Of a DNA stretch of 33,636 nt, positions 1,053 through 31,794 are shown piece by piece (positions within the stretch are counted from its first letter, which is position 1; every line of letters begins with the position of its first letter). Position numbers and translations under genes: made by a program. The stretch comes from Bacillota bacterium (lineage in GTDB: Bacteria > Bacillota > Clostridia > Acetivibrionales > DUMC01): NCBI GenBank assembly GCA_013314855.1, contig JABUEW010000037.1:1-33636 (forward strand), in the 5' to 3' direction. Below the pieces are notes generated by a model. That model searched no databases. It was not told the origin of the DNA and was given only the letters and a program-made list of their open reading frames with translations.

Positions 1053-1179
1053 AGACCTAGACAAAATATTAGAATTGTGGTATAAAAAATGTAGTATCAG
1101 CAATAAATTTAATAAGTATAATGAATATAATTTATTGCAGAGAAATTTAATTATGAAATTTATAAATATGAGCATTAGC

Positions 1180-1253
1180 GCGGGTGTAATTCAATGGTAG
1201 AATATCAGCTTCCCAAGCTGACTGCGAGGGTTCGATTCCCTTCACCCGCTCCA
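1180..1253 (+). tRNA. tRNA-Gly (anticodon CCC)
   Basis: The acceptor arm GCGGGTG (1180-1186) pairs with CACCCGC (1243-1249), followed by T and an encoded CCA. The anticodon stem TCAGC/GCTGA carries the loop TTCCCAA, giving anticodon CCC, which reads GGG. The T arm GAGGG-TTCGATT-CCCTT is standard. Confidence 0.95.
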
Positions 1254-1259
1254 TTGTAT

Positions 1260-1335
1260 GCCCTCATAGCTCAGTAGGTAGAGCGCATCCATGGTAAGGA
1301 TGAGGTCACCAGTTCGATTCTGGTTGAGGGCTCCA
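1260..1335 (+). tRNA. tRNA-Thr (anticodon GGT)
   Basis: The acceptor arm GCCCTCA (1260-1266) pairs with TGAGGGC (1325-1331), followed by T and an encoded CCA. The anticodon stem CATCC/GGATG holds the loop ATGGTAA, anticodon GGT. It lies six bases after tRNA-Gly, so the two are probably one transcript. A terminator follows at once. Confidence 0.95.
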
Positions 1336-2427: not shown

Positions 2428-2453
2428 AGAAATGTGAAAAGTAGGTGTTTTAT

Positions 2454-2897
2454 ATGGATGGTCATTTGATGCTCAAAGAAATTGCTGAAGGATATTCGGT
2501 AAAAAGTCAAAAAGTTATTATTGCCTGTGTTGACAGGGATATATTGAAATACTTCTTTTCGAATTGGGAATGGCTAAATCTTGGACTCATTGTATCCGAA
2601 CATCTTTTAAAGTTGCCGAAAGAAGCTAGAAAAGAGGAGATAGTGGATATTGTAAGAAAAATAATAGAAGTGACTGATTCGGAAAATGTTGTGATAGAAA
2701 ACATTGATGTTCTTTTTTCACCCGAATATTCCCTTGATGTTATTAAATTATTTACATTGGCAGGGAAAAACAAACGTCTAATTATATTATGGGAAGGCAC
2801 TTTTAAAAACGGAATTCTCACTTATGCAGAACCAGGTTATGATGATTATCACAGCTACGAGATAAAAAATTATGATGCATATTGCATCACAAAATAG
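2454..2897 (+). CDS. brxF: BREX type 3 protein BrxF
   Basis: The 147-residue product matches the BrxF family of type 3 BREX systems, small ATPase-like proteins of unknown exact role at the head of the operon. Family-like segments are LNLGLIVSEHLLKLP, a Walker-B-like VVIENIDVLF, and ILTYAEPGYDDY near the end. I chose ATG 2454 because AGGTG lies six bases upstream; a GTG at 2445 is in frame but overlaps that site. BrxF is usually described as P-loop containing, but no GxxGxGK[ST] is visible here: the N-terminus runs straight from KVIIACVDRDILKYF into the middle domain. It ends ten bases before brxC. Confidence 0.8.
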   Translation: MDGHLMLKEIAEGYSVKSQKVIIACVDRDILKYFFSNWEWLNLGLIVSEHLLKLPKEARKEEIVDIVRKIIEVTDSENVVIENIDVLFSPEYSLDVIKLFTLAGKNKRLIILWEGTFKNGILTYAEPGYDDYHSYEIKNYDAYCITK

Positions 2898-2907
2898 AGG
2901 TGATAGA

Positions 2908-5900: not shown

Positions 5901-6597
5901 CTATGCAACCATCATCAATCAGAGGCTAAATGCCCTGAAAGAAGAGTATATTACATATTATATGGATTTGCACGCAAAATGCCGTCTGGGTATAAACGAC
6001 AGCGCCAGGAAAGGAAGAATCCTTGAAGATAAGACCATGGCAAACTTAAAAAAACTTACAAATATATCCGGTATTCTTTCGGTGGGTATATTTAACGAAA
6101 TTGTTGAGAAAGAACTGTCTCCGCTCAAGGTATGTTATGAGCTTTCTTCCGTGGAACTTAAGCAAAGCCATATTTGTCCTCACTGCCATTTTAAACCTTC
6201 GGATAATGAAAAACCGGTCAAAGGCAGTCTTGATATAATAGAAGATAAACTTGAAAGACTTCTAAAGGAATGGACACAGGCGATTTTATCAAGCATTCAA
6301 GACCCGCTGGTAGCCAGTGATACAGAGTATCTTAAACCGGAACAAAAACAGGTAATAAAAGCATTTTTATCAAGCCAAAAATTACCGGAGATTGTAGACA
6401 ACCACTTTATAGAAGCAGTGAATACATTGCTGCAGGGACTTGACAAGGTAGAAGTGGACATTGGCGAGCTAAGCCAAACCATCCTTTCCTGGGGTCCATG
6501 CACGATTGATGACTTGAAAAGAAAGTTTGATACATTAATTGCTAGGTGGTCTAAGGGAAAAGATAAGAATAAATTAAGGATAATTATTAAGAAGTAA
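2908..6597 (+). CDS. brxC: BREX type 3 AAA+ ATPase BrxC
   Basis: This 1229-residue protein is the large ATPase of the BREX complex (BrxC/PglY family), thought to drive the assembly that blocks phage DNA replication. The Walker A motif GNYGTGKS is at residues 67-74 and the Walker B motif YLLVIDE at 173-179. The long remainder is helical and charged, and a Cys/His pair motif HICPHCH lies near residue 1090. The start is ATG 2908, placed after GAGGTG; an in-frame ATG at 2872 lies inside brxF with no ribosome binding site. Length fits the type 3 family. After its TAA the same reading frame reopens for 27 codons, with an ATG at 6604 (see 6604-6681). Confidence 0.92.
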   Translation: MKYSELVSFEPIETVIQIKDADDSEKAAKLIESYVMSDDMAKMINDKILSELNLNEVVDNKGVFLVGNYGTGKSHLMSVISAIAEDENNIKYLKNKKFAEYIKPIAGKFEVLRIEIGAVKTSLRDIITKELEKDLSKRGIFFTFPPADTITSNKEALNEMMAKFECAYGTKGYLLVIDELLDYLKSRTQMDLMLDFAFLRELGEFIKNSRFRVICGVQEALFDNPSFTFVSTTLLKVKDRFEQAIIRREDIAYVVSERILKKNAEQKAKIREHLQKFCSLYKNMAERMEEFVDLFPIHPAYIETFQRVYLAEKREVLKTISATVKSIIDTEVPSDEPGIKSYDSYWKYIKENLAKKAEPEIKEVLDKSSLLEDIINRSFTAKAVYKPLAIRIIYALSVHRLTTGSLDVKSGLIVQNLKDDLCLYIDTPIKEEEFLLSTIQSVMKAIMETVSGQFIAYNKDNEQYYLDLKKDIDYDAKIEQKANVLHDSQLNHYFYSIIYDMLDWDANEYVPGHKIYEYFINWEEKNIYRIGYLFMGESNERPTAQPPRDFYVYFLPPYGVLTAADEKKDDEVFLKFKGDEEFKSNLKMFAAATEMELLAAQSDTKKIYNRKAEDYKKAAKKWIDANKISCFTVTYKGITRQLIEVLHGKRLNDKTFKEIIDMAASISLSDYFNEKYPRYPKFQVKITERNIREVLGRGLDYIAGKQTQDGANLLDSFGLLSEGKIKPENSMYAMHFIKKINSLPSNNVLNAMDIFDNPYHDVYYDKEFKLGREWIVLILAAMAYSGYVTILAGNNVRYDASNLDALAKENLLYLIEFKHIARPKAPAMAELKKAFSVLGIPEGLIVNPNTWDDAVKELLSTTRNLADRALHARNILNENFVLWGEQLIPNNIMDDYKEKTRVVLDFANAVNSRFNTPAKLINFDYTIKQLENIAESIRTIRIVERYQDLKNQCSANIEYFSKVELVVDDENWKNKIKAEKDAFFAVRDALRTPDDVTDYATIINQRLNALKEEYITYYMDLHAKCRLGINDSARKGRILEDKTMANLKKLTNISGILSVGIFNEIVEKELSPLKVCYELSSVELKQSHICPHCHFKPSDNEKPVKGSLDIIEDKLERLLKEWTQAILSSIQDPLVASDTEYLKPEQKQVIKAFLSSQKLPEIVDNHFIEAVNTLLQGLDKVEVDIGELSQTILSWGPCTIDDLKRKFDTLIARWSKGKDKNKLRIIIKK

Positions 6598-6603
6598 ATT
6601 ACT

Positions 6604-6681
6604 ATGGACAGGCTTGCCAACGATGAGTTAAGGCAAAACATTGAACGAAAAGGAATTGAAATTTACAGGAGGAAGGATTAA
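6604..6681 (+). CDS. 25-codon ORF between brxC and pglX, in frame with brxC
   Basis: ATG 6604 opens a 25-residue frame (MDRLANDELRQNIERKGIEI then YRRKD) whose TAA shares an A with the ATG of pglX at 6681. It is in the same frame as brxC, separated from it only by the brxC stop and two codons. The sequence is strongly helical and charged, like the end of a larger protein. Two readings fit: a former C-terminal tail of BrxC cut off by a stop mutation, or a short coupling peptide that carries ribosomes to the pglX start. No good SD precedes ATG 6604, while its last codons contain the pglX SD. Confidence 0.4.
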   Translation: MDRLANDELRQNIERKGIEIYRRKD

Positions 6682-9257
6682 TGAAGCAAATGAAGCTGAC
6701 TAAAGAGCTATTGGACAAAGTACGTCATTTCGAAGGATTTCCCATAGGCAGGGATGAGGATATTATTGCATTATCGCAGCCGCCGTATTATACTGCATGC
6801 CCCAATCCCTTTATTGAGGACTTCATAAAAGAGCATGGCAAACCCTATGATGAAGAAAATGACTGTTACCATCGGGAACCTTTTGCTGCAGATGTCAGTG
6901 AAGGGAAAAATGATCCTATATACAATGCCCACAGTTACCACACCAAGGTGCCATATAAAGCAATAATGCGTTATATCCTGCACTATACGGAGCCGGGTGA
7001 TATAGTCTTCGATGGCTTCTGCGGCACCGGTATGACGGGGGTGGCAGCCCAGATGTGTGGCAATCCTGACCCTGAATTTAAACTGCGGATTGAAAGCGAA
7101 ATGCCATACGTGAAATGGGGGGCACGGAAGGCCATACTAAACGACCTTTCGCCTGCAGCAACCTTTATTGCTGCCAATTATAACCTTCCGGTAGACGTTG
7201 TAGAGTTTGAGAAAGAAGCGAAGAGAATCCTTGACGAGTGCGAAAAAGAGTGCGGCTGGATGTATGAGACACAGCATGTCGACGAAAGCGGCAAGGTAAT
7301 CACGGGAATTGACGGGAAACCGATCATAGGGAGGATAAACTACGTGGTCTGGTCGGATGTTTTTGTATGCCCTAACTGCTCTAAAGAAATTGTTTTCTGG
7401 GAAACAGCGGTGGACAAAGAAAAAGGACAGGTGGTTGAACGATTTTCCTGCCCGCACTGTAGAAGCGAACTGAAAAAAACCGACTGCGAAAGGGCAAAAG
7501 AGACGGTATATGACAGGGCTTTAAAGGAGAACCATACCTTTGCAAAACAAGTGCCGGTGCATATCAGCTATTCGGTGGATAATAAACGCTGTAATAAGGA
7601 CCCCGATGCCTTTGACTTAGAACTCCTGCAAAGAATCGAGGAAATGGAAATACCTTACTGGTATCCCACGGACAGGATGCCGGAGGGATATAATACCGAG
7701 CAGCCAAAAAAATCTCATGGAATAACCCATGTGCACCATTTTTATACGAAGAGGAATTTGTGGGTATTGGCGAGTTTATATAAAAAGATTTTACTGGTGC
7801 AAATTCAAAAAATAAGGGAAGCTTTACTGTTTGGTTTTAATAATGTACAACAAAGACACTGTAAACTAAACGCTATGCGTTTTAATGTATCATTTCCATC
7901 AAATATTACAAGTGGCACGTTATATATGCCATCTCTAATTAAAGAGAATAATATTTATGATCAATTTAAGAATAAATTTTTTAAAAGGTTTACTCATGTA
8001 TTTAATAAGCTTATAATAAAAGATAATTCGATTATATCAACAAATAGTCATACAAATGTAGTAATGGTTCCAAACAACTCTATCGACTACATCTTCACAG
8101 ACCCGCCGTTCGGCAGCAACTTGATGTATTCAGAGCTCAACTTCCTCTGGGAAGCATGGCTTAGGGTATTTACCAACAACAAACCTGAGGCGGTTATCAA
8201 CAAAGTCCAAAAGAAAGGCTTGACTGAATACCAGGAGCTCATGGAAAAATGCTTTGCCGAGTGCTACCGCATCTTGAAACCCGGCCGCTGGATGACGGTA
8301 GAGTTTCATAATTCTTCCAATGCGGTGTGGAACAGCATCCAGGAGGCATTGCTGCGGGCAGGCTTTGTGGTAGCCGATGTGCGTACATTAGATAAGCAAC
8401 AGGGAAGTTTTAAGCAGGTTACTACTACTTCTGCCGTAAAACAGGATTTGATTATCTCTGCATACAAACCCAAAGAAAGCTTCAAACGCCGCTTTCTTGA
8501 GCATGCCGGCAGTAGTGATGCAGTCTGGGACTTTGTACGGCAGCACCTTGAAAAGCTACCGGTAGTGGTTGAAAGCAAGGGTAAGCTTACCGTGATTCCC
8601 GAGCGGCAGGCATATCTCCTTTTTGACCGCATGGTGGCATACCACATTATAAACGGCATTCCTGTACCCATGGATGCGGGAGAGTTTTACCAGGGACTTA
8701 AGGAAAGGTTTGTTGAACGGGATGGGATGTATTTCCTCCCTGGTCAGGTAAATATTTATGATGATAAAAGGCTGCGCATGGAGATTGAAAATAACAGCCA
8801 ACTTTCGTTTGTTGTCACTAATGAAAGGACAGCTATACAGTGGCTGTATTATGTACTAAAAACTCCCAAGACCTACCAGGAGATTCAGCCCAAATTCATC
8901 CAGGAACTGCATCAGCTTAAATATGAGAAAATGCCTGAACTAAGGGATATCCTGGAAGAAAATTTCCTGCAGGATGAAAATGGTAGATGGTATGTACCTG
9001 ATGTCAATAAGGCCTCAGACCTGGCTAAACTAAGAGAAAAGAGGCTTTTGAAAGAGTTTGATGAATATGTAAACAGCACGGGGAAGCTCAAAGTGTTCCG
9101 ACTGGAGGCTATCCGTGCAGGTTTTGACAGGTGCTGGAAGCAGAGGGATTTTAAAACCATAGTTAATATTGCCAGACGTCTGCCAGAAAACGTAGTGTAT
9201 GAGGATCCGGCTATTCTTATGTATTATGACAATGCTTTGGGCAAAGTAGAAGGTTAA
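6681..9257 (+). CDS. pglX: BREX type 3 adenine-specific DNA methyltransferase PglX
   Basis: The 858-residue product is the site-specific N6-adenine methylase that marks host DNA in BREX. The SAM-binding motif I is VFDGFCGTGMTG (about 109-120), and the catalytic motif IV is DPPFG (474-478). A four-cysteine zinc ribbon lies between them: CPNC at 230-233 and CPHC at 257-260. The order motif I, recognition region, motif IV is that of the alpha group of methylases. Residues about 370-467, just before DPPFG, are encoded by very AT-rich DNA: I count 57 G+C in 240 bases at 7801-8040, against 33 in 60 at 8101-8160. This suggests an exchanged recognition segment. ATG 6681 follows a strong SD (AGGAGGAAGG). 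Confidence 0.92.
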   Translation: MKQMKLTKELLDKVRHFEGFPIGRDEDIIALSQPPYYTACPNPFIEDFIKEHGKPYDEENDCYHREPFAADVSEGKNDPIYNAHSYHTKVPYKAIMRYILHYTEPGDIVFDGFCGTGMTGVAAQMCGNPDPEFKLRIESEMPYVKWGARKAILNDLSPAATFIAANYNLPVDVVEFEKEAKRILDECEKECGWMYETQHVDESGKVITGIDGKPIIGRINYVVWSDVFVCPNCSKEIVFWETAVDKEKGQVVERFSCPHCRSELKKTDCERAKETVYDRALKENHTFAKQVPVHISYSVDNKRCNKDPDAFDLELLQRIEEMEIPYWYPTDRMPEGYNTEQPKKSHGITHVHHFYTKRNLWVLASLYKKILLVQIQKIREALLFGFNNVQQRHCKLNAMRFNVSFPSNITSGTLYMPSLIKENNIYDQFKNKFFKRFTHVFNKLIIKDNSIISTNSHTNVVMVPNNSIDYIFTDPPFGSNLMYSELNFLWEAWLRVFTNNKPEAVINKVQKKGLTEYQELMEKCFAECYRILKPGRWMTVEFHNSSNAVWNSIQEALLRAGFVVADVRTLDKQQGSFKQVTTTSAVKQDLIISAYKPKESFKRRFLEHAGSSDAVWDFVRQHLEKLPVVVESKGKLTVIPERQAYLLFDRMVAYHIINGIPVPMDAGEFYQGLKERFVERDGMYFLPGQVNIYDDKRLRMEIENNSQLSFVVTNERTAIQWLYYVLKTPKTYQEIQPKFIQELHQLKYEKMPELRDILEENFLQDENGRWYVPDVNKASDLAKLREKRLLKEFDEYVNSTGKLKVFRLEAIRAGFDRCWKQRDFKTIVNIARRLPENVVYEDPAILMYYDNALGKVEG
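7780..8080. other. AT-rich insert-like block inside pglX
   Basis: Base composition falls sharply inside the gene: 24 percent G+C by my count for 7801-8040, compared with 47 percent at 7621-7680 and 55 percent at 8101-8160. The frame stays open through the block. It ends just before the conserved DPPFG motif. The encoded residues are rich in Asn, Ile, Phe and Lys, and I recognise no motif in them. Limits are approximate. Confidence 0.6.
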
Positions 9258-9273
9258 TTATGGGGGAAGGTAC

Positions 9274-11958
9274 ATGTTTGATATAGGCCAGTGGGCTTAT
9301 GACACTGTTAAAGGTGTACGGGTGCAGGTTATCGGAAAAGAAGACCTCTGGGGTTATGTTTCCTACCAGGTCTATGAGCCTGTGTCAAAGATGTCTTATT
9401 TCATCAACGGAGATTATCTCGACAAAAGTCCGGAAGAAAACTACTCTGTTTCATTTGTGCGGTATATTACAGCCCTTGCAAGGATCAAAAATGAATTGGC
9501 TGAAGGTATTTTTGTTAAATTGGACGAAAGCATCCTGCCTTTGCCACACCAGGTTTATGCCCTGAACAGGACGCTTTCCGGTAACAATATCCGCTATTTG
9601 CTGGCGGATGAAGTGGGTTTAGGGAAAACCATTGAAGCAGGACTGATCATCAGGGAATTGAAAGCACGCGGCCTCATCAAGAGGGTTTTGATAATCTGCC
9701 CCAAGGGACTTGTGACCCAGTGGTATATGGAAATGCTGGACAAGTTTCATGAAAAATTCAATATTGTATTATCGGAAGATTATGATACCATCAGAAGAAT
9801 TTATGGCACCGGAAATGTTTACGAGGCATTTGATAATGTTATCAGTCCCATGGATTCTATAAAGCCTTTAGAAAAGAGAACAGGATGGGACGATGAAAAG
9901 ATACGGCAGTATAATGATGAACGTATCTATGCCATTATCAACAGCGGATGGGATTTGATTATTATAGACGAGGCCCACCGTGTGGCCGGAAGTTCAAGTG
10001 AAGTGGCAAGGTACAAGATGGCAAACCTGTTAGCCAAGGCAAGCCCCTACCTGCTTCTGCTCACTGCCACTCCGCATTCGGGTAAAACAGAGCCGTTTTT
10101 GCGCCTGGTAAGGCTTTTGGATGAAAAGGCTTTCCCGGATTATCGTGCTATAGTAAAGGAGCAGGTTGCACCCTATGTTATCCGCACAGAAAAACGCGAA
10201 GCGATAGATTATGAAGGCAACAGGCTTTTTAAGGATAGAATAACCAGGGTTATAGGTATAAAGTGGAGTGAAAGGCATAGTTTGCAAAAGGAGCTTTACC
10301 AGCGTGTAACCAGGTATGTAGCCAATGGATACAAAAAGGCCATAAAACAGAAAAAATACCACGTCGGGTTTTTGATGGTTCTCATGCAAAGACTGGTTTC
10401 CAGCAGCACCGCTGCAATTCGTGAAAGCATAGAAAAACGGATAGCTGTCCTAAAAAATCAGTCATCCCAATTATCTCAGCTAACCTTGCAGCTATCTTTG
10501 GAAGATTTGTACGAAATTGATGCAGAGACTGCCCTGGAAAACTTGCTATCGACAGCGGATTTCGATATTGATTCAGAACTTAACGAGCTTGAGCAAATTT
10601 TAGCCGTAGCAAAGCAGGCTGAGCACCAGTTTTTGGATGCCAAGGCAGAACACCTGGTTGATCTACTGGACAAGCTTTATACCGAAGATAATGGAAGAAA
10701 AGTGATAATCTTTACCGAGTTTGTTGCTACGCAAATATTTTTACGCGATTTTTTGCAACGTCGCGGGTATTCATGCTCAATTCTGAACGGTTCCATGAGT
10801 ATTGATGAAAGAAGTGCTGTGCTCACTGAATTTAGGACAAAGACTGACCTTCTTATTTCTACGGATGCCGGCGGGGAAGGTTTAAATCTCCAATTTTCCA
10901 ATGTGGTAATCAATTATGATCTTCCCTGGAATCCGATGAAAATTGAACAACGTATCGGCAGGGTGGACAGAATCGGGCAAAGCCGTAATGTATTTGTGTA
11001 TAACTATGTGCTTGAAGATACCGTGGAAAAACGGGTCATGGAAGTTCTGGAAACAAAGCTTTCTGTTATCCTTGAACAGATGGGTATTGATAAAATACAG
11101 GATGTCCTTGATAGTGAGCTTGCAGAAGTTGATTTTACCGATGTTTACATTAAATCAATTGCTGACCCTAGATACACTGATTATTACCTTGACAGGCTTG
11201 AATCAGATATTAAAGAACAAGTTGCACAGGCGAAAAAAGTCCGAGAGTTAATGAAAGATGATAAAACTTTTGATGTTGCTCTAATATCGAATATTGACAA
11301 GAACAATAATGTTATAGACTTATTGCGCCGGATGTACGTAAATTATAAGGAGTGGAAAAATAAGAGCATTGAAAATATTGACCAGTTAATGATTGATCTT
11401 AATCATGAAGAAATAAAGACGCTTGTTAACCAGGTTTTGCATTGGGATAAATCAGACGGTGCTGTTATCATTAATATCCCGGATTTACCCAATGAGAAGG
11501 GATATAGGTCCATTTGGGAGCTCAGCATAAGTTCTGACGTTCAAGATAAACGTATCATTCCTGTTTTTGTAAACACAAATGGGCTTTCGCGCCCAGCTTC
11601 AGCTAATAGAATATGGGATGAACTTTTAAAACCGGGAAGGGTTATTGAAGTACTAGGAATAAAGCAACTGTATGATACTGATTATGAAAAAATATTTAAC
11701 GTAGCTAAAGATACGGCTTACAATAGTTTTTTTATGCTTAAAGATAGATATGAAAAACGGAATCAACTGGCATACGAAAAATATCTTTTTGCTTTGCAGT
11801 TAAGGCTTGAAGCTGCTGAAAGGATTGGCATAGAAAATATCAAGAGGAGCAGAATTGAATCCATTAGCAGGGAAAAAGAAATAATACAGACCGAGTATGC
11901 TTACAAAAGAAAATTATGTCCGGTATTAAGACCTGTATTTATAGCATTTATGGAGTGA
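9274..11958 (+). CDS. brxHII: BREX type 3 SNF2-family helicase BrxHII
   Basis: An 894-residue superfamily 2 helicase/translocase of the SNF2/RapA kind, one of the six core type 3 BREX proteins. Motif I is ADEVGLGKT (111-119) and motif II is DEAH (232-235). The motif III region LLLLTATPHSG follows, and the C-terminal RecA lobe ends with the arginine-finger motif VI QRIGRVDRIGQ starting near residue 559. The N-terminal 60 residues form a small beta-rich domain and the C-terminal 250 are helical. ATG 9274 follows the SD GGGGGAAGG. Its TGA overlaps the ATG of pglZ by one base. A DISARM DrmD assignment was considered but the neighbours fit only BREX. Confidence 0.9.
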   Translation: MFDIGQWAYDTVKGVRVQVIGKEDLWGYVSYQVYEPVSKMSYFINGDYLDKSPEENYSVSFVRYITALARIKNELAEGIFVKLDESILPLPHQVYALNRTLSGNNIRYLLADEVGLGKTIEAGLIIRELKARGLIKRVLIICPKGLVTQWYMEMLDKFHEKFNIVLSEDYDTIRRIYGTGNVYEAFDNVISPMDSIKPLEKRTGWDDEKIRQYNDERIYAIINSGWDLIIIDEAHRVAGSSSEVARYKMANLLAKASPYLLLLTATPHSGKTEPFLRLVRLLDEKAFPDYRAIVKEQVAPYVIRTEKREAIDYEGNRLFKDRITRVIGIKWSERHSLQKELYQRVTRYVANGYKKAIKQKKYHVGFLMVLMQRLVSSSTAAIRESIEKRIAVLKNQSSQLSQLTLQLSLEDLYEIDAETALENLLSTADFDIDSELNELEQILAVAKQAEHQFLDAKAEHLVDLLDKLYTEDNGRKVIIFTEFVATQIFLRDFLQRRGYSCSILNGSMSIDERSAVLTEFRTKTDLLISTDAGGEGLNLQFSNVVINYDLPWNPMKIEQRIGRVDRIGQSRNVFVYNYVLEDTVEKRVMEVLETKLSVILEQMGIDKIQDVLDSELAEVDFTDVYIKSIADPRYTDYYLDRLESDIKEQVAQAKKVRELMKDDKTFDVALISNIDKNNNVIDLLRRMYVNYKEWKNKSIENIDQLMIDLNHEEIKTLVNQVLHWDKSDGAVIINIPDLPNEKGYRSIWELSISSDVQDKRIIPVFVNTNGLSRPASANRIWDELLKPGRVIEVLGIKQLYDTDYEKIFNVAKDTAYNSFFMLKDRYEKRNQLAYEKYLFALQLRLEAAERIGIENIKRSRIESISREKEIIQTEYAYKRKLCPVLRPVFIAFME

Positions 11959-13448
11959 TGATTTTGTTTTGCACTTACTTGCTTGACAAGCTGGCTGTAG
12001 ATTATGAAAACAGGATCCTTCTTTTTGATGAGGATAACCTTTTCATAAGGAGCGGAGCTGTGCAGTCTGTTAAAAGCAGGGGCTTTGAAGTAATAGAATA
12101 TACAGAGCCACTGACATTCCGATATTATTATGAAGCAAGGCTGCGGGATAATAAAGACTCAAAAGTGGTTATCCACGTACGGGATACTGCCATTTTTGTT
12201 CCCTATGATATCAGAAAACGTTTTTATAACGTTTCAATTGATTATGTTAAGCTTTTCCCAAAGTTGGATGCATTGGTATTGAGAAAGGCTCGCCATATTG
12301 ACCTTGATTTGCTGTATGTGGCTTATCAAAACTATTTTGGCGATAATTTAGGTGCCAAAGGTACCATGGATTTTATTCGAAAAAGGATGTTTGAAGAAGC
12401 AAATGCTAATGAATTTGTAGATTTATTAAGTACCAAAATTAAGAAGCAAATAAGAAGAGAAAGTCTAAATTACAAAGATTGGCTTGATGTGGCTAAAAAC
12501 TGGGGAAAAATCCGCATGCTTGTTGACGGTGGGTATGCTGTTAGAGATATTCATGAATTATCACAGGAAATCAACAAGGCTTTTAAGTTATGGATGTTTC
12601 AACATTACCACCAACTTTCAGCAAGCCCAAATGTTGATGGCCCGGTAATTGTCCATAAAATAAACGATTATATGCGGACAAGAAGCCAAAAGATTGCGCT
12701 TATTCTTATAGATGGCATGTCAGTGGAAAATTGGCTGACTATTCTTGCTCATGTAGGGGATTTCGATTATAATATTGAGGATGGTTGCTGTTTTGCATTT
12801 GTACCGAGTGTTACTGCCATTTCCAGGCAGTCAGTGTTTTCAGGTAAGCTCCCGGTGAGCCATAGCGACCCGTTTTCTTTAAAAAATGAAGAAAAGCAGT
12901 GGGTAGAGTATTGGACAGAAAATGGATATAAGGCAAATGAAATTTACTTTGGCAAAGGGATGGAGGTAGATATACCTTATTACATTAAAATTGCAGGCAT
13001 TGTTATCAATTTTATTGATGATTTAATGCATGGTCAGATCCAGGGGCAGAAAGGAATGTACAGGGATATTGCTTCATGGGCGCGCGACGGAGAGTTTAAA
13101 AGATTTGTTGGTGGATTAATAAAAAGAGGGTTTGATGTGTATGTGGCTTCGGACCATGGAAATGTTGAAGCCCATGGGCAGGGAAAACCTAAAAATGAAG
13201 GCTTGCTAACCGAAATGACATCATTAAGGGCGAGGATTTACCATGATTTTGCTGTCACAGATAAGGTTGAGGAGAATTTTAAAGCTTTTAAGTATCCCGG
13301 CATATATTTGCCGAAGGATTTCCAATATATTGTTTGTGAAGAAAATACTGCTTTTGGCACAAAAGGAAAAAGTTATGTTTGCCATGGCGGGATGAGTATT
13401 GAAGAGGTTATTGTTCCATTTATCAGGATAAAGGATGTGACTTCATGA
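11958..13448 (+). CDS. pglZ: BREX type 3 alkaline-phosphatase-like protein PglZ
   Basis: The 496-residue product has a PglZ domain of the alkaline phosphatase superfamily, the hallmark of BREX. Metal-site motifs are visible: LILIDGMS (Asp 252), the nucleophile region VTAISRQSVFSG, SDHGN (Asp 399, His 400) and HGG (His 476). The N-terminal half has the family's FRYYYEARLRD segment. It seems shorter than the type 3 PglZ proteins I know, which are nearer 650 residues, but all metal motifs are present. The start is uncertain. ATG 11958 shares a base with the brxHII stop, but the nearest GGAG is only two bases away. TTG 11964 has the better spacing of eight bases. An in-frame ATG at 11916 lies inside brxHII. 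Confidence 0.9.
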   Translation: MILFCTYLLDKLAVDYENRILLFDEDNLFIRSGAVQSVKSRGFEVIEYTEPLTFRYYYEARLRDNKDSKVVIHVRDTAIFVPYDIRKRFYNVSIDYVKLFPKLDALVLRKARHIDLDLLYVAYQNYFGDNLGAKGTMDFIRKRMFEEANANEFVDLLSTKIKKQIRRESLNYKDWLDVAKNWGKIRMLVDGGYAVRDIHELSQEINKAFKLWMFQHYHQLSASPNVDGPVIVHKINDYMRTRSQKIALILIDGMSVENWLTILAHVGDFDYNIEDGCCFAFVPSVTAISRQSVFSGKLPVSHSDPFSLKNEEKQWVEYWTENGYKANEIYFGKGMEVDIPYYIKIAGIVINFIDDLMHGQIQGQKGMYRDIASWARDGEFKRFVGGLIKRGFDVYVASDHGNVEAHGQGKPKNEGLLTEMTSLRARIYHDFAVTDKVEENFKAFKYPGIYLPKDFQYIVCEENTAFGTKGKSYVCHGGMSIEEVIVPFIRIKDVTS

Positions 13449-14152
13449 GCAAAGCTGTAGTATTTGCCAGACCAATCAGGCAGGAATGGCTGGATAAAAC
13501 TGTTGAAATGTTGCTGAATAGCCAGAATAGAGATGAGATAAAAAAAAGTCTTAATGTCTATCTTGCCAATTATATTAAAAGCAGTACCAATATAAGAAAA
13601 ACAAGAGAAATTCTCATGAATATATGGGTGGATATTGATGATAATAACCGGGCTTTCCGGGATAAGTCTTTAGAAGTTTATAAGAATAGCATCCAGTCCG
13701 ACCGGCTAGCCATCCATTGGGCAATGCTGTTATTGGCATTTCCTATTTTCCGGGACTTATGCACCATTATCGGAAAACTGACAGATATGCAGGAAGAAAT
13801 AACGTTGTCTCAAATCAAAAGAAGAATTTTTGAAATATGGGGTGAGAGAAGCACGCTAATTTATTCAGTGCCGAAAAATATAAAAACACTAAGGGACTGT
13901 GGCGTATTGGAACAGGTTAAGACCGGAGTTTATAAGGTAGTAAAGCATGAGATAAAGAATAACGACGTTAGTTGCCTGCTGTTGTATGCAGTTTTTAAGA
14001 CGAGTGATAAATTGTACCATAGTTTTTCTCATATAGACAAACTAAAGGAATTGTTTCCCTTTATTATTGAAATCGGAATAGATGATTTGAGTTTAAGACA
14101 AATGTTTAGATTAGAAAGAATGGGTGGAGAAACTGTTGTAAGCATTAAATAG
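13445..14152 (+). CDS. brxA: BREX protein BrxA (DUF1819 family)
   Basis: The 235-residue product matches BrxA, a small mostly helical DUF1819 protein reported to bind DNA in other BREX types. It has the usual N-terminal helices (TVEMLLNSQNRDEIKKSLN), a middle LAIHWAMLLLAFPIFRD segment, and a winged-helix-like RRIFEIWGERSTLIYSVPKN that ends in TLRDCGVL. Its ATG overlaps the pglZ stop as ATGA, a standard sign of translational coupling. It is the last gene of the operon. No clear terminator hairpin follows, only a T-rich tract at about 14155-14164. Confidence 0.88.
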   Translation: MSKAVVFARPIRQEWLDKTVEMLLNSQNRDEIKKSLNVYLANYIKSSTNIRKTREILMNIWVDIDDNNRAFRDKSLEVYKNSIQSDRLAIHWAMLLLAFPIFRDLCTIIGKLTDMQEEITLSQIKRRIFEIWGERSTLIYSVPKNIKTLRDCGVLEQVKTGVYKVVKHEIKNNDVSCLLLYAVFKTSDKLYHSFSHIDKLKELFPFIIEIGIDDLSLRQMFRLERMGGETVVSIK

Positions 14153-14235: not shown

Positions 14236-14333
14236 CGACTTATCAAGAGTCAGGGTAGAGAGTTGGCTCGATGATCCTGCACCAACCTGCAGGATGCTGC
14301 AAGGTGGTAAAGCCAGCACCGATGAGGAGGTGG
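14236..14333 (+). promoter_or_regulatory. S-box (SAM-I-like) riboswitch candidate lacking P4
   Basis: The sequence follows the S-box order: CTTATCAAGAG, then GAGAGTTGGCTCGATGA, then CCAACC, then AAGGTGGTAAAGCCAGCA and GATGAG. P1 is CTTATC (14239-14244) with GATGAG (14321-14326). P2 is CAGGGT (14251-14256) with ATCCTG (14274-14279), and inside it GAG (14260-14262) pairs CTC (14267-14269). P3 stacks CC, ACC and TGCAG against CTGCA, GGT and GG. The usual GC/GC pair next to ACC/GGT is CC/GG here, a compensated change. The P4 stem normally found after CCAGCA is missing or minimal, as in SAM-I/IV variants. The P1 right arm overlaps an AGGAGG site, so translational control is possible. No methionine or SAM gene follows. 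Confidence 0.6.
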
Positions 14334-19365: not shown

Positions 19366-19722
19366 TTAATCCTTTTTTAGAGCGTTTATCGCAGAAATGA
19401 TTTTTCTTATGTCTTCAGGCGGTATGCTTTTATTCTCCATTTCCTTTGCCAGTTTCAGGTATTCTACACCGACATTGAGCAACTCTTTGGGGATATAATC
19501 TTTTTCAAGCTTTACCAGGTCCCTCTCCTCGATCCTTCCAAGAAGCCAGTCGACAGTCACGTTAAAATGATTGGCGATTTTAATTATTATATCATACTCA
19601 GGCATTCTCTTTCCGTTTTCATAAAGGGATATTGCGCTGCCATTCAAGTTCAACAAAGATGCGAAATCCTGCTGCGTCATTTTATGTTCCTGGCGTAATT
19701 GTTTTATTCTTTTTCCTACCAT
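19366..19722 (-). CDS. XRE-family transcriptional regulator
   Basis: The 118-residue product has an N-terminal Cro/C1-type helix-turn-helix (RIKQLRQEHKMTQQDFASLL, then NLNGSAISLYENGKRMPEYD) and the usual HFNVTVDWLLGR end of that domain. A short C-terminal helical tail (LNVGVEYLKLAKEMENK, then IPPEDIRKIISAINALKK) is like SinR-type regulators and probably serves dimerisation. I chose the ATG at 19722 because AAAGGAG stands upstream of it; an in-frame ATG at 19824 has no SD. The target is unknown. It could regulate itself or the convergent small transcript. Confidence 0.85.
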   Translation of the reverse strand: MVGKRIKQLRQEHKMTQQDFASLLNLNGSAISLYENGKRMPEYDIIIKIANHFNVTVDWLLGRIEERDLVKLEKDYIPKELLNVGVEYLKLAKEMENKSIPPEDIRKIISAINALKKD

Positions 19723-19879
19723 TATAATATATACTCCTTTTAAATGAGATTCTAGAAGATAAAAACCTATCAAACGCATTTGATGTCCAATCCTGTTATT
19801 TACTACCTGCAGCTTATTGCTCATGGTAAATTATAAGTACTATAATTATAATATTTTCAATATGAAAAGTAGTAAACAA

Positions 19880-19939
19880 TGATTTTGGTGCATAAACTCA
19901 TTACGCGAAAGCTTCATTCGTTTATTGGCACCAAAATCA
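19880..19939. repeat. Inverted repeat before the miniature kinase copy
   Basis: GATTTTGGTGCATAAAC (19881-19897) faces GTTTATTGGCACCAAAATC (19920-19938), nearly perfect over 17-19 bases with a 22-base centre. There is no T tract. It ends about 15 bases before the point where similarity to the large kinase gene begins, so it may be a MITE-like remnant or belong to the rearrangement. Confidence 0.55.
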
Positions 19940-19953
19940 CTTTCTACACTCAA

Positions 19954-20246
19954 TTGGGAACCTGGTAAAACAGCTGATGACAGAAAGTCAGGAAGAGCTG
20001 GACCGGTGGAAGAAAAGAATTTTGCATGCTCTTGGCCGGAACGGTGCAGTGGTCACCGAGATCATTCCGGAACTGGAATGGATCATCGTAGAGGGAATGT
20101 CCAATAAGGAAATTGCCGATAGGTTGGAGATCACCATAAATACAGTTAAGGGCTATATAAAGAATATATATGAAAAACTGGGAGTAAACAGGAGGGTACA
20201 GGTCGTAACCAGGGCAAAGGAACTTAAGATATTAAAAAATAAGTAG
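19954..20246 (+). pseudogene. Miniature derivative of the large kinase/LuxR gene
   Basis: This segment is collinear with two separate parts of the gene at 26904-31613. Bases 19954-20088 match 28021-28155 with five differences, and 20083-20246 match 31450-31613 with one. The join is at TCATCG, which occurs at both donor positions, so exactly 3300 bases (1100 codons) are missing and the frame is kept. ATG 19977 would give 89 residues: a piece of the AAA domain, then the LuxR helix-turn-helix (VEGMSNKEIADRLEITINTV, KGYIKNIYEKLGVNRRVQVV). No SD precedes that ATG. It is probably a pseudogene, though a free LuxR domain could be made and compete for DNA sites. Confidence 0.8.
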
Positions 20247-20267
20247 GATGATAAAAAAATGTGTTTT

Positions 20268-20296
20268 CCCACCCTTTCGGGTGGTTTCTTTTTTTT
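20268..20296 (+). terminator. Rho-independent terminator of the miniature copy
   Basis: CCACCC-TTTC-GGGTGG followed by TTTCTTTTTTTT. It is duplicated from the end of the large kinase gene, where the stem is weaker (TACCC with GGGTG). Confidence 0.85.
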
Positions 20297-20318
20297 AAGA
20301 TTACTCTATAATCTTAAA
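20294..20318. repeat. Perfect palindrome upstream of the TM2 gene
   Basis: TTAAGATTA (20295-20303), five-base loop CTCTA, TAATCTTAA (20309-20317). It follows the terminator directly and could be an operator or a second hairpin. Confidence 0.5.
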
Positions 20319-20453
20319 TGTTCGATAAGCAGAGAAAGGATGATGTTTATATGGAGTGAAAGCAGACACATATAATGAAAAGGGACCTATACTTTTAATA
20401 AGTGGGGTACACTGTATTAACCTTTAATTAATTAAAGATAGGAGGGGTCTATT

Positions 20454-20645
20454 GTGAAAAGCAAAACAACAGCACTTATTTTAGCAATACTTTTACCGGG
20501 CATTGACAGAATGTATCTGGGTAAAATCGGCACGGGAATTTTGAAGTTCATTACGGGAGGCGGTTTTGGCATTTGGTGGATCATTGATATAATTTTAATC
20601 GCTACCGATAAAGCAACCGACAATAAAGGCAATAAACTTCAATAG
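20454..20645 (+). CDS. TM2-domain membrane protein
   Basis: The 63-residue product is a TM2-domain protein: two membrane helices joined by a short polar turn, here ALILAILLPGIDRMYLGKIG and GGGFGIWWIIDIILIATD. The DRxYLG turn is the family signature (usually GxDRFYLG). The start is GTG 20454 behind AGGAGGGG. It is the first gene of a run of five same-strand genes for membrane and surface proteins, nine bases before the next. The biochemical role of TM2 proteins in bacteria is not established. Confidence 0.88.
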   Translation: MKSKTTALILAILLPGIDRMYLGKIGTGILKFITGGGFGIWWIIDIILIATDKATDNKGNKLQ

Positions 20646-21324: not shown

Positions 21325-22005
21325 ATGAAATACAATATTTTTGGCGGTAATCTACCAGCAGTTACTATTACTCTGGATAATGGGGAAAGCATCTATACCC
21401 AATCAGGTGGAATGACCTGGATGACAGACAACATTGTAATGAAAACAAATATGAAAGGCGGTTTTCTCAAAGGTCTTGGTAGAATGCTATCCGGAGAATC
21501 GCTTTTTATGGCAACATATACCGCAAAGGCAAACGATGCTGAAATTACATTGGCATCTTCTTTTCCAGGTTCTATAGTTGCTGTTGATATTAGTAATAGC
21601 AATGTCATTATTCAAAAGAATGCATTTTTGTGTGCTCAGCCAACAGTTGAGCTTAGCATGTATGTCAACAAAAATGCCGGTTCCGGATTTTTCGGGGGTG
21701 ATGGGTTTATTCTGCAAAAATTGGCCGGCAGAGGGCTTGCATTCTTTGAAATTGATGGTGCATGTTGTGAAAAAGTTCTTGCTCCAGGAGAAGTCATTAA
21801 GGTTGACACTGGCAATGTTGCTGCTTTCGAAGAAGATGTAAAATATGAAGTAGAAACTGTAAAAGGCTTTAAAAACATTTTATTTGGTGGAGAAGGCTTA
21901 TTCCTTACAAAACTCACAGGACCCGGCAAGGTATGGCTGCAGACAATGACAATGCCAAACTTTGCTCAAAAGATTATTCCGTTCTTGCCAAAAAAGAACG
22001 ACTAA
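21325..22005 (+). CDS. AIM24 / TIGR00266 family protein
   Basis: The 226-residue product is an AIM24-like double-psi/beta-barrel protein. It has the family's repeated Gly-rich turns: GGMTWMTDNIVMKTNMKGGF, SSFPGSIVAVDI, GSGFFGGDGFILQKLAGRGL and FGGEGLFLTKLTGPGKVWLQ. It has no signal peptide or membrane helix. Members are of unknown function and often accompany TM2 or stress genes. ATG 21325 follows GGAGGG. Seventeen bases separate it from the preceding gene, so co-transcription is likely. Confidence 0.9.
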   Translation: MKYNIFGGNLPAVTITLDNGESIYTQSGGMTWMTDNIVMKTNMKGGFLKGLGRMLSGESLFMATYTAKANDAEITLASSFPGSIVAVDISNSNVIIQKNAFLCAQPTVELSMYVNKNAGSGFFGGDGFILQKLAGRGLAFFEIDGACCEKVLAPGEVIKVDTGNVAAFEEDVKYEVETVKGFKNILFGGEGLFLTKLTGPGKVWLQTMTMPNFAQKIIPFLPKKND

Positions 22006-26652: not shown

Positions 26653-26826
26653 TTATTGTTGCTGCCTAATGTTTACAAAGTGGATATTTACTATAATTGG
26701 GATTTGATAACCAACGATTTTTTTCTTACCAATTGGTCTTTCATACTCTGAAATAACTTTCAGCTTCAGCCTGGTTGTAGAACAAAAATCATATTCATGG
26801 CTGTAAATATTGCGAATCCATTGCAT
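26653..26826 (-). CDS. Possible 57-residue protein
   Basis: A minus-strand frame from ATG 26826 encodes MQWIRNIYSHEYDFCSTTRL, then KLKVISEYERPIGKKKIVGY and a short hydrophobic end. The composition (YERPIGKKKIVGYQIP) looks protein-like rather than random, and nothing overlaps it. The SD is weak and an in-frame stop lies just upstream, so it may be a fragment of a longer lost gene. No family recognised. Confidence 0.35.
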   Translation of the reverse strand: MQWIRNIYSHEYDFCSTTRLKLKVISEYERPIGKKKIVGYQIPIIVNIHFVNIRQQQ

Positions 26827-26903
26827 ACATCTTCACATTATAAGGAACGGGTGATAATATATCAATAAGAGGATATGATAATAAATGGGGGCTGGAAGTT
26901 TGG

Positions 26904-29900
26904 ATGTTTGTTTTACCGGATTATATAATTTGTGAACAAATCCATGAAAATAGCAGAATAAATATATACAGAGGATATACAGCCAGGCACCGGGTGCCGG
27001 TTATCATAAAGGCGCTAAAAAAAGAAGCAGCCAACTCGATTGGAATATCAAGGCTCATACATGAGTACGAAATTACCCGGAATCTTAATATCGAAGGCAT
27101 TATTAAGGCCATAAGATTGGAACAGGCAGGGTCATTCTTTGCCCTGATCATGGAAGATATCGGGGCTGTATCCTTGAGAAAATACATGCAGGACCATCCA
27201 GTGAGCCTGCAGAACTTTCTTGATATTGCTGTCCATCTTACAGAAGTTCTTGGCCGACTTCATCAAAAAGGTATAATCCATAGGGATTTGAAACCGGAAA
27301 ATATTCTCATACATCCCAGTATGGGAAAAGTATATATTATTGATTTCAGCAGCGCCGAACTTTTTCCTGCGGAAAGTAAAAATACCCTGCTTTCAAATAA
27401 TCCGGCAGGGACCCTGGAGTATATGTCTCCGGAACAAACAGGCCGGTTGAATATAGGGATTGACCAACGCAGTGACCTTTATTCTCTGGGGGTAATATTT
27501 TATGAGATAATGACCGACCAGCTTCCTTTGCAGGCTGAAAAACCTGCTGAGTGGATACATGCCCATTTAACCCGGAAACCGGAACCGCCGGATAAAATCA
27601 ACCCTGATATTCCTTCCGTTATATCCGATATCATTATGAAACTATTGGCAAAGGGTGCTGAAGAGAGATACCAGAGTGCCTATGGGCTTTTGTGGGATCT
27701 TAAAGAATGTAAGAGACAGCTGATTCAAACAGGAAGGATTGAGCCTTTTTCCATAGGACGGATGGACGTATCCGCACGTTTCCAGCTGCCCCGTAAGCTC
27801 TATGGAAGAGAAAGGGAGAAGGAAGCTTTAAAAGCTGCTTTTGACCGTGTATGTGAAGGTCAGGCCGAGACAATACTGGTAAGCGGATATCCGGGTGTAG
27901 GCAAAACAATGTTGATAAATGAAAGCCTGAAGCCCATTGTGATGGAAAAAGGCTATTTCATCATGGGGAAATTTGACCAGCTCAGGCAAAACATTCCTTA
28001 TGCTCCCTTCGCGGCTGCCTTTGGGAATCTGGTAAAACAGCTGATGACCGAAAGTCAGAAAGAGCTGGACCGGTGGAAGAAAAGAATTTTGTGTGCTCTT
28101 GGCCGGAACGGTGCAGTGGTCACCGAGATCATTCCGGAACTGGAATGGATCATCGGAAAGCAGATTCCTGTGGATGTGCTGTCCCCGAAAGAGACTGAAA
28201 ACCGTTTCCTGCTGGTATTCAGAGATTTTGTCAGGGCATTTGCCCGGAGAGAGCATCCGCTGGTGCTGTTTCTAGACGACCTGCAGTGGTCGGACCCTGC
28301 TTCGGTACACTTACTGAAGTATTTGAACCAGGATGCAAACCTTCACTTTTTGCTTTTCATCGGAGCTTTCCGAGAAAATGAGGTGAATGGGGATCACCCG
28401 CTGGCGGAAATGCTGGAAGAAAGCCGTAAAGGGAAGCCCCATGAGAAGCATATTTCCCTGCTGCCCATGGAAAGAAACCAGGTTGAGAAACTGGTAGCTG
28501 AAACGCTGCACGCTGAGTCGGAAAATACGGCTGCCCTGGCGGAGGTATTGTACCGTAAATCCGGGGGCAATCCCTTTTTCCTGGGGCAGTTGCTCACTCT
28601 GATACATGACGAAGGATTTCTATATTTCAATACACAGGAAGGCTGCTGGAAGTGGGAACTGGAAGCTATCCAAAAGCTGCAGCCGGGAGAGGATGTGCTG
28701 GAAACTCTCCTGAAAAAGCTGCAAAGGCTTCCGGAGGAGACCCGGGAGATCATGAAGCTGGCGGCCTGCATTGGAAACAGATTTGACCTGGAAACACTGG
28801 CTGCTGTGAGCGGCAAGTCTTTGGAGGAGACAGCCTCCTGCCTGATGCCGTCGATCCTTGAAGGGCTTGTCCTGACAGCGGTAAATCAAAAGAAAAACCT
28901 GACTTCAGCTTATCCGGAGACCATGCTCTCTGTATTTGAATTCCTGCATGACCGGGTACAGCAGGCTGTCTATTCCCTCATTCCGGAAAATGAGAAGAAA
29001 GAGAAGCACATTGTCATCGGTCGTCTGCTTTTACAGAATACGGTCCGCAGCAGTCCGGAAGAGAAGATACTGTCCATCATGGACCATTTCAACCGCAGCC
29101 TGGAACTGATTTATGACCCTGTAGAGAGGATGGAGCTGGCAGGATATAACCTGATGGCGGGACGGAAGGCTAAAGTCTCGGCGGCGTATGCTTCGGCCCT
29201 GCAATATTTCAGATCCGGAAGGGCACTGCTGCCAGACGCCGCATGGGAGCATGCCTATAGTCTCAGCTATGACCTGCACCTGGAGCTTGCCCAGGCGGAA
29301 TATCTATCTGGCAATGTGAAAGCTGCCGAAGAACTATTTGACGCTGTCATCGAGAAGGCCGGAACTGAACTGGAGCGGGCAGGCGTATACGGCTTGAAGG
29401 TGATATTATATGCTGGCATGGGGAAATATGCCGAAGCGGTCCGGACGGGTATCCACGCTCTGGAGAATTTGGGAGTCAAGCTGCCTGTCCACCCCAAAAA
29501 ACTGGATTATGCAAGGGAACTGCTGCTATATAAATGGTACATGCGGAATAAAAAAATTGAAGATCTGATCCATCTGCCTGAGATGAAGGATCCGGTACAG
29601 AGGAAGATTGCAGAGCTCTTGACCCGTCTGTCCTCCGTAACAATGACCAGCTATCCGGATTTATACAGCTTTATTATTCTGAAAACCGGCAATCATGCCG
29701 TCCGGCATGGAAATACCGAAATGACTTCCGTCGGATACTTCGGGTACAGCATTACTGCCGGAAGCATTCTGGGAGATTATGAAGCAGGGGATAGGTATGG
29801 AAGGGTATGCATCCATCTGGTGGAAAAGTATGACCGGAGTTCTTCCAAATGCATCATATATTTTGTCATCGGAGCGTTTATTTCCCATTGGACCCGGCAC

Positions 29901-31613
29901 GCGGCCTTAGGGCTGGAGTACCTCGAAAAGGCTGCCCGCAGCGGGATGGAAGCCGGGGATGTACTGATTATTGGTTATGCACATTGTCTTATTCTTGAAA
30001 TCCGGTATCTTCTAGGTATTTCCCTGGGGGAAATTGCAGAGGAGATCCGGAAAAAACATGAGATTGCAAGAAGGCTAAAGCATGACAACCTTGCTATCAA
30101 TGCGGCAATTTACGAAAAGGTTATATCGGCGCTGCGGGGACGAAAGGCAGATTCACTGGCATCCGGTGCAGCAGAGTTTCAAAAGGATGAGTTTCTACAA
30201 CTGGCACAGAAGGATCAATCTTCCCTGGCAACCTATTATTTTTACAAAATGCAGTTGTGCTACATGGCAGGAAATTACAGGGATGCCCTGTCTGCCGCAC
30301 AAAAGATAGAGCCTCTAACCGGGGCTATTCTTGGCTTTATGATCAGCGCCGAATACAATTTTTATCATTCTCTGACTATAATGGCTCTTTATGGGGAACT
30401 GTCCTTTAAGGACAGGAAGCGTCACTGGAAAACACTGAAAAAAAACCAGCGGCAGATGAAAAAATGGTTGGAGGCCTGCAAGGAGAACTTTGAACACAAA
30501 TTCCTGCTGGTTGCCGCCGAAACAGCGCGCCTGCGGAACAGAAGGGAGGAAGCCATGTCGCTTTATGACCGGGCCATTCGATCAGCCCGGGAAAACGGCT
30601 ATATACAAAACGAAGCCCTTGCCAATGAACTGGCGGCAAGGTTTTATCTGTTCCAGGGTCTGAGGAAAATAGCAAGGACTTATATGATGGACGCCTGTAG
30701 CGGATACAATAGATGGGGAGCTTTTGCAAAAGTTAAAGAACTTCAGAACCGATATCCCGAACTTTTGGACGGAATAGATTTCGAAAAGCAAAAGAATGAT
30801 ACTGCTCAAGTATTTGAAAATATACTAAGTATTTCTACGACAAGCGACAGTGAAACGGCAGGCAGCCTGGATATGTATTTTATAGATAAAGCGGTAGAAA
30901 ATATTTCTAAAGAGACTGACATAAATAAGCTGCTCGAAAGCTTTTTAGATATAGCAGTCCAAAGCATCGGTGCAGACAGGGGGTATTTAATACTTGAAAA
31001 AAATGGAGAGTTGTTTATCGAAGCTGCAAAAGATAGTAACTGCAGTGTAACGGTCGTAAAAACCGTCCCAGTGGAAGAAAGTCATAAACTTTCAAAGGCA
31101 ATAGTACGGTATGTCGCCCGAACCCTTGAGACTATAGTTTTAAATTGTGGAGAGCAGAATGGAATCTTTGCCAGTGACCCTTATATAGCAAAATCGGATT
31201 TAAGGTCGGTAGCCTGTCTGCCTTTATTGTTTCAGGGAATACCGTTTGGTGTGCTTTACTTTGAAAACAGCCTTCTACCCGGGGTATTTACACCTGATCG
31301 GCTTGAGGCGTTGAAGCTATTATCCACCCAGGTAGCCTGTGTTAAAAAACTGCAATCGTATCTGGAGGAAAATACTGTAAAGGCCGAAGAGGAAGCATAC
31401 CCCTATCTTATTGATCCTCTCACTGAACGGGAGACAGAGGTGCTCAATCTCATCGTAGAGGGAATGTCCAATAAGGAAATTGCCGATAGGTTGGAGATCA
31501 CCATAAATACAGTTAAGGGCTATATAAAGAATATATATGAAAAACTGGGAGTAAACAGGAGGGTACAGGTCGTAACCAGGGCAAAGGAACTTAAGATATT
31601 GAAAAATAAGTAG
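26904..31613 (+). CDS. Multidomain regulator: Ser/Thr kinase, AAA ATPase, GAF, LuxR helix-turn-helix
   Basis: The 1569-residue cytoplasmic protein starts with a protein-kinase domain (about 1-270): Lys 36 in VIIK, catalytic HRDLKPEN at 126-133 and SPEQTG. The Gly-rich loop is not recognisable and DFG is DFS (147-149). Next is an AAA-16-type ATPase with Walker A SGYPGVGKT (near 327-335) and Walker B LVLFLDDLQW. A long helical TPR-like region (about 620-1290) follows, then a GAF sensor domain (about 1330-1490) and a LuxR DNA-binding domain (LTERETEVLNLIVEGMSNKE, last 65 residues). Relatives usually end in a histidine kinase; here the output is DNA binding. ATG 26904 follows GGGGGCTGG. TTCACA-17-TAATAT at about 26832-26860 is a weak promoter candidate. 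Confidence 0.9.
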   Translation: MFVLPDYIICEQIHENSRINIYRGYTARHRVPVIIKALKKEAANSIGISRLIHEYEITRNLNIEGIIKAIRLEQAGSFFALIMEDIGAVSLRKYMQDHPVSLQNFLDIAVHLTEVLGRLHQKGIIHRDLKPENILIHPSMGKVYIIDFSSAELFPAESKNTLLSNNPAGTLEYMSPEQTGRLNIGIDQRSDLYSLGVIFYEIMTDQLPLQAEKPAEWIHAHLTRKPEPPDKINPDIPSVISDIIMKLLAKGAEERYQSAYGLLWDLKECKRQLIQTGRIEPFSIGRMDVSARFQLPRKLYGREREKEALKAAFDRVCEGQAETILVSGYPGVGKTMLINESLKPIVMEKGYFIMGKFDQLRQNIPYAPFAAAFGNLVKQLMTESQKELDRWKKRILCALGRNGAVVTEIIPELEWIIGKQIPVDVLSPKETENRFLLVFRDFVRAFARREHPLVLFLDDLQWSDPASVHLLKYLNQDANLHFLLFIGAFRENEVNGDHPLAEMLEESRKGKPHEKHISLLPMERNQVEKLVAETLHAESENTAALAEVLYRKSGGNPFFLGQLLTLIHDEGFLYFNTQEGCWKWELEAIQKLQPGEDVLETLLKKLQRLPEETREIMKLAACIGNRFDLETLAAVSGKSLEETASCLMPSILEGLVLTAVNQKKNLTSAYPETMLSVFEFLHDRVQQAVYSLIPENEKKEKHIVIGRLLLQNTVRSSPEEKILSIMDHFNRSLELIYDPVERMELAGYNLMAGRKAKVSAAYASALQYFRSGRALLPDAAWEHAYSLSYDLHLELAQAEYLSGNVKAAEELFDAVIEKAGTELERAGVYGLKVILYAGMGKYAEAVRTGIHALENLGVKLPVHPKKLDYARELLLYKWYMRNKKIEDLIHLPEMKDPVQRKIAELLTRLSSVTMTSYPDLYSFIILKTGNHAVRHGNTEMTSVGYFGYSITAGSILGDYEAGDRYGRVCIHLVEKYDRSSSKCIIYFVIGAFISHWTRHAALGLEYLEKAARSGMEAGDVLIIGYAHCLILEIRYLLGISLGEIAEEIRKKHEIARRLKHDNLAINAAIYEKVISALRGRKADSLASGAAEFQKDEFLQLAQKDQSSLATYYFYKMQLCYMAGNYRDALSAAQKIEPLTGAILGFMISAEYNFYHSLTIMALYGELSFKDRKRHWKTLKKNQRQMKKWLEACKENFEHKFLLVAAETARLRNRREEAMSLYDRAIRSARENGYIQNEALANELAARFYLFQGLRKIARTYMMDACSGYNRWGAFAKVKELQNRYPELLDGIDFEKQKNDTAQVFENILSISTTSDSETAGSLDMYFIDKAVENISKETDINKLLESFLDIAVQSIGADRGYLILEKNGELFIEAAKDSNCSVTVVKTVPVEESHKLSKAIVRYVARTLETIVLNCGEQNGIFASDPYIAKSDLRSVACLPLLFQGIPFGVLYFENSLLPGVFTPDRLEALKLLSTQVACVKKLQSYLEENTVKAEEEAYPYLIDPLTERETEVLNLIVEGMSNKEIADRLEITINTVKGYIKNIYEKLGVNRRVQVVTRAKELKILKNK

Positions 31614-31634
31614 GATGATAAAAAAATGTGTTTT

Positions 31635-31667
31635 CCTACCCTTTCGGGTGATTTCTTTTTTTTTTAA
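31635..31667 (+). terminator. Terminator of the large regulator gene
   Basis: TACCC (31637-31641) with GGGTG (31646-31650), loop TTTC, followed by a long T tract. The same element in slightly stronger form ends the miniature copy at 20268. Confidence 0.75.
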
Positions 31668-31702
31668 GTTATAAACCTACTAAAAATTAATAATTTCCCA
31701 AT

Positions 31703-31734
31703 TTGACATCAACAAAACCAATTTATGGTATAAT
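31703..31734 (+). promoter_or_regulatory. Extended -10 promoter of the transposase
   Basis: TGGTATAAT (31726-31734) is an extended -10 element. TTGACA (31703-31708) matches the -35 consensus but the spacer is 20 bases, so the extended -10 probably does most of the work. Confidence 0.6.
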
Positions 31735-31794
31735 GTTGTACAGTCAATAAACTTTATACACGAAAGGAGTAGTGTCACCTTGTACAACATTATA
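31729..31794. repeat. Perfect 14-bp inverted repeat over promoter and start codon
   Basis: TATAATGTTGTACA (31729-31742) is the exact reverse complement of TGTACAACATTATA (31781-31794). The left arm is the -10 box and transcription start; the right arm lies on the transposase start codon. It could be an operator for a repressor, or fold the leader mRNA. Confidence 0.7.

Follow-up and report, generated by a model that had tools for sequence, protein, structure and literature searches.

A truncated LuxR-type regulator sequence upstream of TM2-like and AIM24 genes is probably the pseudogene stump of a former full-length gene

A stretch of 343 bases in a Bacillota genome lies upstream of a small membrane-protein gene and repeats two separate parts of an intact regulator gene located 7 kb away. 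This raises the question whether the element is a small gene in its own right, a fragment copied from the regulator, or what is left of a larger gene that once stood here. We addressed this within the window, i.e., the whole stretch of 33,636 nucleotides that was analyzed (contig JABUEW010000037.1 of assembly GCA_013314855.1). An earlier note on this DNA had described the element as a miniature copy of the regulator, made by a 3300-bp microhomology deletion, retaining an intact LuxR domain and possibly acting as a competitor of the full-length protein. The features discussed are listed in Table 1.

Table 1. Coordinates in the window of the mini element, the intact regulator and adjoining features
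Feature	Position	Strand	Remarks
Left half of the element	19954..20088	+	Covers regulator codons about 373-417, where the AAA ATPase region begins; identity to L072 and L074 88%
Open frame with ATG, 89 aa	19977..20246	+	Probably untranslated; from the ORF list
TCATCG junction	20083..20088	+	6-nt overlap of both alignments; present at 28150-28155 and 31450-31455
Right half of the element	20083..20246	+	LuxR HTH without first helix, up to the stop codon
Intrinsic terminator CCACCCTTTCGGGTGG and T tract	20269..20294	+	Same form as in L072
Native 3' flank of the regulator gene	20297..20374	+	Outside the duplicated stretch; match to L072
Small TM2-like membrane protein gene	20454..20645	+	Directly 3' of the regulator in G012 (L073)
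AIM24 family gene	21325..22005	+	Downstream of the regulator in G012 (L073) and G002 (L035)
Native 5' flank of the intact copy	26808..26903	+	Promoter-like site TTCACA-17-TAATAT at 26832-26860, aligned with one in L072
Intact regulator, 1569 aa	26904..31613	+	Ser/Thr kinase, AAA_16 ATPase, GAF, C-terminal LuxR HTH
Terminator of the intact copy	31614..31663	+	Homology to the element stops here, followed by other DNA

Self-BLAST of the window resulted in two gapless matches between the element and the regulator gene, for which a chance origin is excluded. The left half (19954-20088) corresponds to 28021-28155 (135 nt, 96.3% identity, five substitutions, E = 1e-58), and the right match (20083-20296) corresponds to 31450-31663 (214 nt, 98.6% identity, three substitutions, E = 6e-106). 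Thereby we recovered the two indel-free halves described before, joined at a TCATCG that is found at both donor sites. Since random joins within the regulator gene rarely have at least 6 nt in common (0.25-0.5%), the microhomology at the junction is probably real. Between the two halves, 3300 nt of the regulator are gone, and the loss of 1100 codons with preservation of the frame, also claimed earlier, could be verified; by chance alone, the frame would be kept in one of three cases. The homology does not end at the stop codon but continues to 20296, and the element also contains the terminator, as had been proposed.

The 5' end of the element is also broken. It begins inside codon 373 of the regulator, and the native start, the promoter and most of the coding sequence are gone. 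To the left, the DNA is unrelated; it includes an Xre-like gene in divergent orientation (19366-19824) as well as a strong hairpin (19880-19939). This hairpin is near-perfect (z = -4.5) and lies just left of the break. A search of the same genome returned no other copies of it, and it may be the boundary of the DNA now found in place of the 5' part of the gene.

Three lines of evidence bear on which of the two copies is older. Directly 3' of the element, positions 20300-20374 match positions 5009-5083 of L072 (contig JAAYMO010000120.1), which lie 3' of a full-length regulator whose protein is 79% identical (nucleotide identity of the flank 79%, E = 3e-10); this evidence comes mainly from that one relative. 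L072 carries other genes further downstream of its regulator, and the intergenic stretch of G012 showed no detectable match. The flank of the intact copy (31664-31760) did not match the 3' flank of the L072 regulator. The gene order is regulator, TM2 and AIM24 in G012 (L073, DUMB01000044.1) and regulator and AIM24 in G002 (L035). The window shows a matching arrangement, with the mini element followed by the TM2 gene (20454), a hypothetical gene (20655) and the AIM24 gene (21325); the name TM2 is based on the look of the sequence, with no positive match in Pfam or NCBIfam. Judged by the L072 flank and by the order in G012 and G002, the element stands where relatives have an intact gene. Finally, the two copies differ at eight bases. 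At five of these, the element has the base of L072, the nearest relative, and the intact copy has changed (19961, 19992, 20025 and two bases of the terminator stem, where the full copy carries T/A changes relative to the form shared by the element and L072). Only one base has changed in the element (19982), and the remaining two vary among relatives (20026 and 20234).

Because of the native 3' flank, the TM2/AIM24 gene order and the predominance of ancestral-like bases, the mini element is most readily interpreted as what remains of a full-length gene that occupied this conserved position, with the intact gene being the second copy. This would settle the direction of change, the stump marking the older place of the gene. 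The deletion of 3300 bp at a microhomology fits the sequence, whereas the notion of a copy has to be reversed: the mini element appears to be the remainder of a resident full gene. The gene upstream of AIM24 shows further decay or remodeling in the two relatives, with a frameshift just before the LuxR domain of the G012 regulator (L073 14476-14521) and a regulator without the kinase domain in G002 (L035 8230-12249).

The intact copy has a CAP/SLH gene in front of it and transposase remains after it. It alone has kept the conserved 5' flank and the promoter-like site. While the two copies are 96-99% identical to each other, identity to any other genome is at most 88%, and the duplication therefore probably happened within the lineage of this genome. 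Full-length relatives of the regulator were found in related clostridial genomes, most of them metagenome-assembled. The earlier note had also raised paralogues elsewhere, full-length or mini. The genome itself contains one other full-length relative (contig C85, 56% identical), and no further mini copies were found in it. Nor is the deletion shared with relatives, which had been suggested as a further check: of the 58 genomes of the order that were searched, only the genome of the window has the junction pattern, and the 57 others lack it. The frame across the junction is accordingly not conserved in these relatives.

The element is most likely a pseudogene stump of the kinase-AAA-GAF-LuxR regulator. 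It shows the properties of a pseudogene: identity to an intact parent is high, and the promoter, the start and the greater part of the coding region are lost. We propose that a full-length kinase-ATPase-GAF-LuxR regulator gene would once have been located directly upstream of the TM2 and AIM24 genes. A duplicate of the whole transcription unit would then have been established about 7 kb further downstream, following the CAP/SLH gene, as the intact copy at 26904-31613, leaving the copy in the first place redundant. Unrelated DNA would subsequently have taken the place of the promoter, the start and the first 372 codons of this first copy. A deletion from one TCATCG to another, presumably through slipped mispairing or a similar illegitimate recombination, would have removed 1100 of its internal codons.

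A different route to the same arrangement would be homologous recombination involving the 3' gene end, for example by integration of a circle or by unequal crossing-over. The element and the 3' end of the intact gene would then be a direct repeat flanking an 11.4-kb segment that could still be lost or multiplied. Such a repeat exists (214 bp, 98.6% identical, 11,367 bp apart), and the native 3' flank at the stump together with the native 5' flank at the intact copy speaks for such an event. However, neither a second copy of the segment nor an empty site was found, the internal deletion is not explained by such recombination itself, and even then we would regard the stump as a relic. We therefore regard this explanation as rather unlikely. 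The search for an empty site behind the CAP/SLH gene led to G023, where two related CAP genes are arranged in tandem with no regulator alongside and with unrelated flanks. A repeat of the 3' end of tRNA-Thr, which would mark an integrated island, was not found near the stump. The 214-bp direct repeat could permit loss or amplification of the 11.4-kb segment, and the stump might recombine with the full-length gene.

We also considered that two short pieces of the intact gene were copied in by template switching or repair synthesis, so that no full second gene ever existed at this place. Two short segments joined at a microhomology, with unrelated DNA preceding the left piece, would be consistent with this scenario. 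Nevertheless, the native 3' flank, the gene order of G012 and G002 and the ancestral-like bases call for a resident gene, making copied-in pieces a quite improbable origin.

The remaining biological alternative takes the stump for a working 89-aa HTH regulator that would share its binding sites with the full regulator and act as its competitor, or would form heterodimers through the last helix. The frame is open, and the recognition helix and the last helix are unchanged. In addition, a structure model of low confidence (mean pLDDT 66) shows four helices in the C-terminal part of the protein. Contrary to the earlier note, the LuxR domain is not intact: the GerE profile (PF00196) covers only positions 14-56 of 57 in the mini ORF (53 bits), compared to positions 1-56 in the full gene (74 bits). 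The first 13 of the 57 profile positions, and with them a complete four-helix domain, are missing from the stump ORF. Where the first LuxR helix (LTERETEVLNL) belongs, a segment of the ATPase region (VTEIIPELEWI) is aligned instead, and the low-confidence model places a helix there that replaces the lost one, followed by the HTH helices.

Nor did the stump show expression signals. No promoter-like site was detected on the + strand upstream of the 89-aa frame in a promoter scan, which is a weak test. Likewise, no Shine-Dalgarno sequence was found; this, too, is a weak test, with an anti-SD energy of -3.3 kcal/mol over the upstream 20 bases. The TM2, AIM24, CAP and intact regulator genes reached about -8 to -10 kcal/mol, values we treat as supporting evidence only, given that weak scores were also obtained for some other genes in the window. 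We would not expect the stump to yield a protein. The open frame says little about function, because the two copies differ at only eight positions, and these differences are too few to read selection from substitutions between the stump and the intact copy. Truncated LuxR-type antagonists are known, e.g., TrlR of Agrobacterium (PMC3907764), but TrlR keeps the dimerization part without the DNA-binding part, which is the reverse of the stump. With no promoter-like site on the + strand, no Shine-Dalgarno sequence, no native start or 5' end and a junction seen in no other genome searched, the proposed role as a competitor of the full regulator found no support, and we assign a working regulator only a very small probability. 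Smaller still is the chance that a chimeric 89-aa HTH protein, its first LuxR helix replaced by the ATPase segment, is expressed and damps the intact regulator. The terminator of the stump, on the other hand, may still be usable and could shield the TM2 gene from read-through coming from the left.

An assembly artefact is highly improbable: the metagenome-assembled genome is a draft (252 contigs, 3.3% contamination) and repeats can mislead assemblers, but the eight differences between the copies imply that the stump was not built from reads of the intact gene, and a 6-nt overlap is too short for an assembler to join without spanning reads.

Several other features of the window and of related loci were observed. 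Matches to BrxF, BrxC, PglXI, BrxH, PglZ and BrxA (PADLOC) at 2445-14152 make up the set of genes known from type 3 BREX defense systems. Directly behind this cluster lies a SAM riboswitch (14237-14328, + strand; RF00162, 54 bits), with no recognizable methionine gene after it. The genes for sigH, tRNA-Gly and tRNA-Thr are neighbors both in L035 (7438-15437) and in the window (384-1335). In G002, sigH and the tRNAs flank the regulator-AIM24 module, which in the window is found about 19 kb beyond them. This place looks like an insertion hot spot. A paralogous pair of the hypothetical gene at 20655 and the C11 peptidase gene is present in L126 (G000:C25, 161-2352), preceded by a terminator resembling that of the regulator. 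Contig C60 (6.7 kb) is 97% identical at both of its ends, in opposite orientation, to the end of the window's contig (33496-33636), and resembles an element bounded by terminal inverted repeats.

Single-domain LuxR regulators of the GerE type, of about 74 aa in Bacillus subtilis, resemble the 89-aa frame in length and in consisting of an HTH domain only. In contrast to the stump, the four-helix domain of GerE is complete and the gene carries expression signals of its own, whereas the first helix of the stump frame comes from another part of the protein. In annotation, the 89-aa frame should not be named a LuxR regulator. With TrlR, a defective TraR that blocks TraR (PMC3907764), the stump shares being a truncated paralogue of a LuxR-type regulator that probably arose by gene duplication. 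TrlR is expressed and lacks the DNA-binding domain while retaining the dimerization part; the stump retains the opposite, only part of the DNA-binding domain, and has no expression signals, and it does not fit a truncated antagonist of this kind. The closest likeness is to pseudogene remnants left by recombination between short direct repeats, illegitimate recombination having been put forward as a main contributor to small segment diversity in bacterial genomes (PMC2884548). Such remnants show the same internal deletion, few shared bases at the join and a redundant copy. The present case differs in nothing essential; its deletion is long (3.3 kb), and the frame was preserved by coincidence. 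We regard the stump as an ordinary gene relic.
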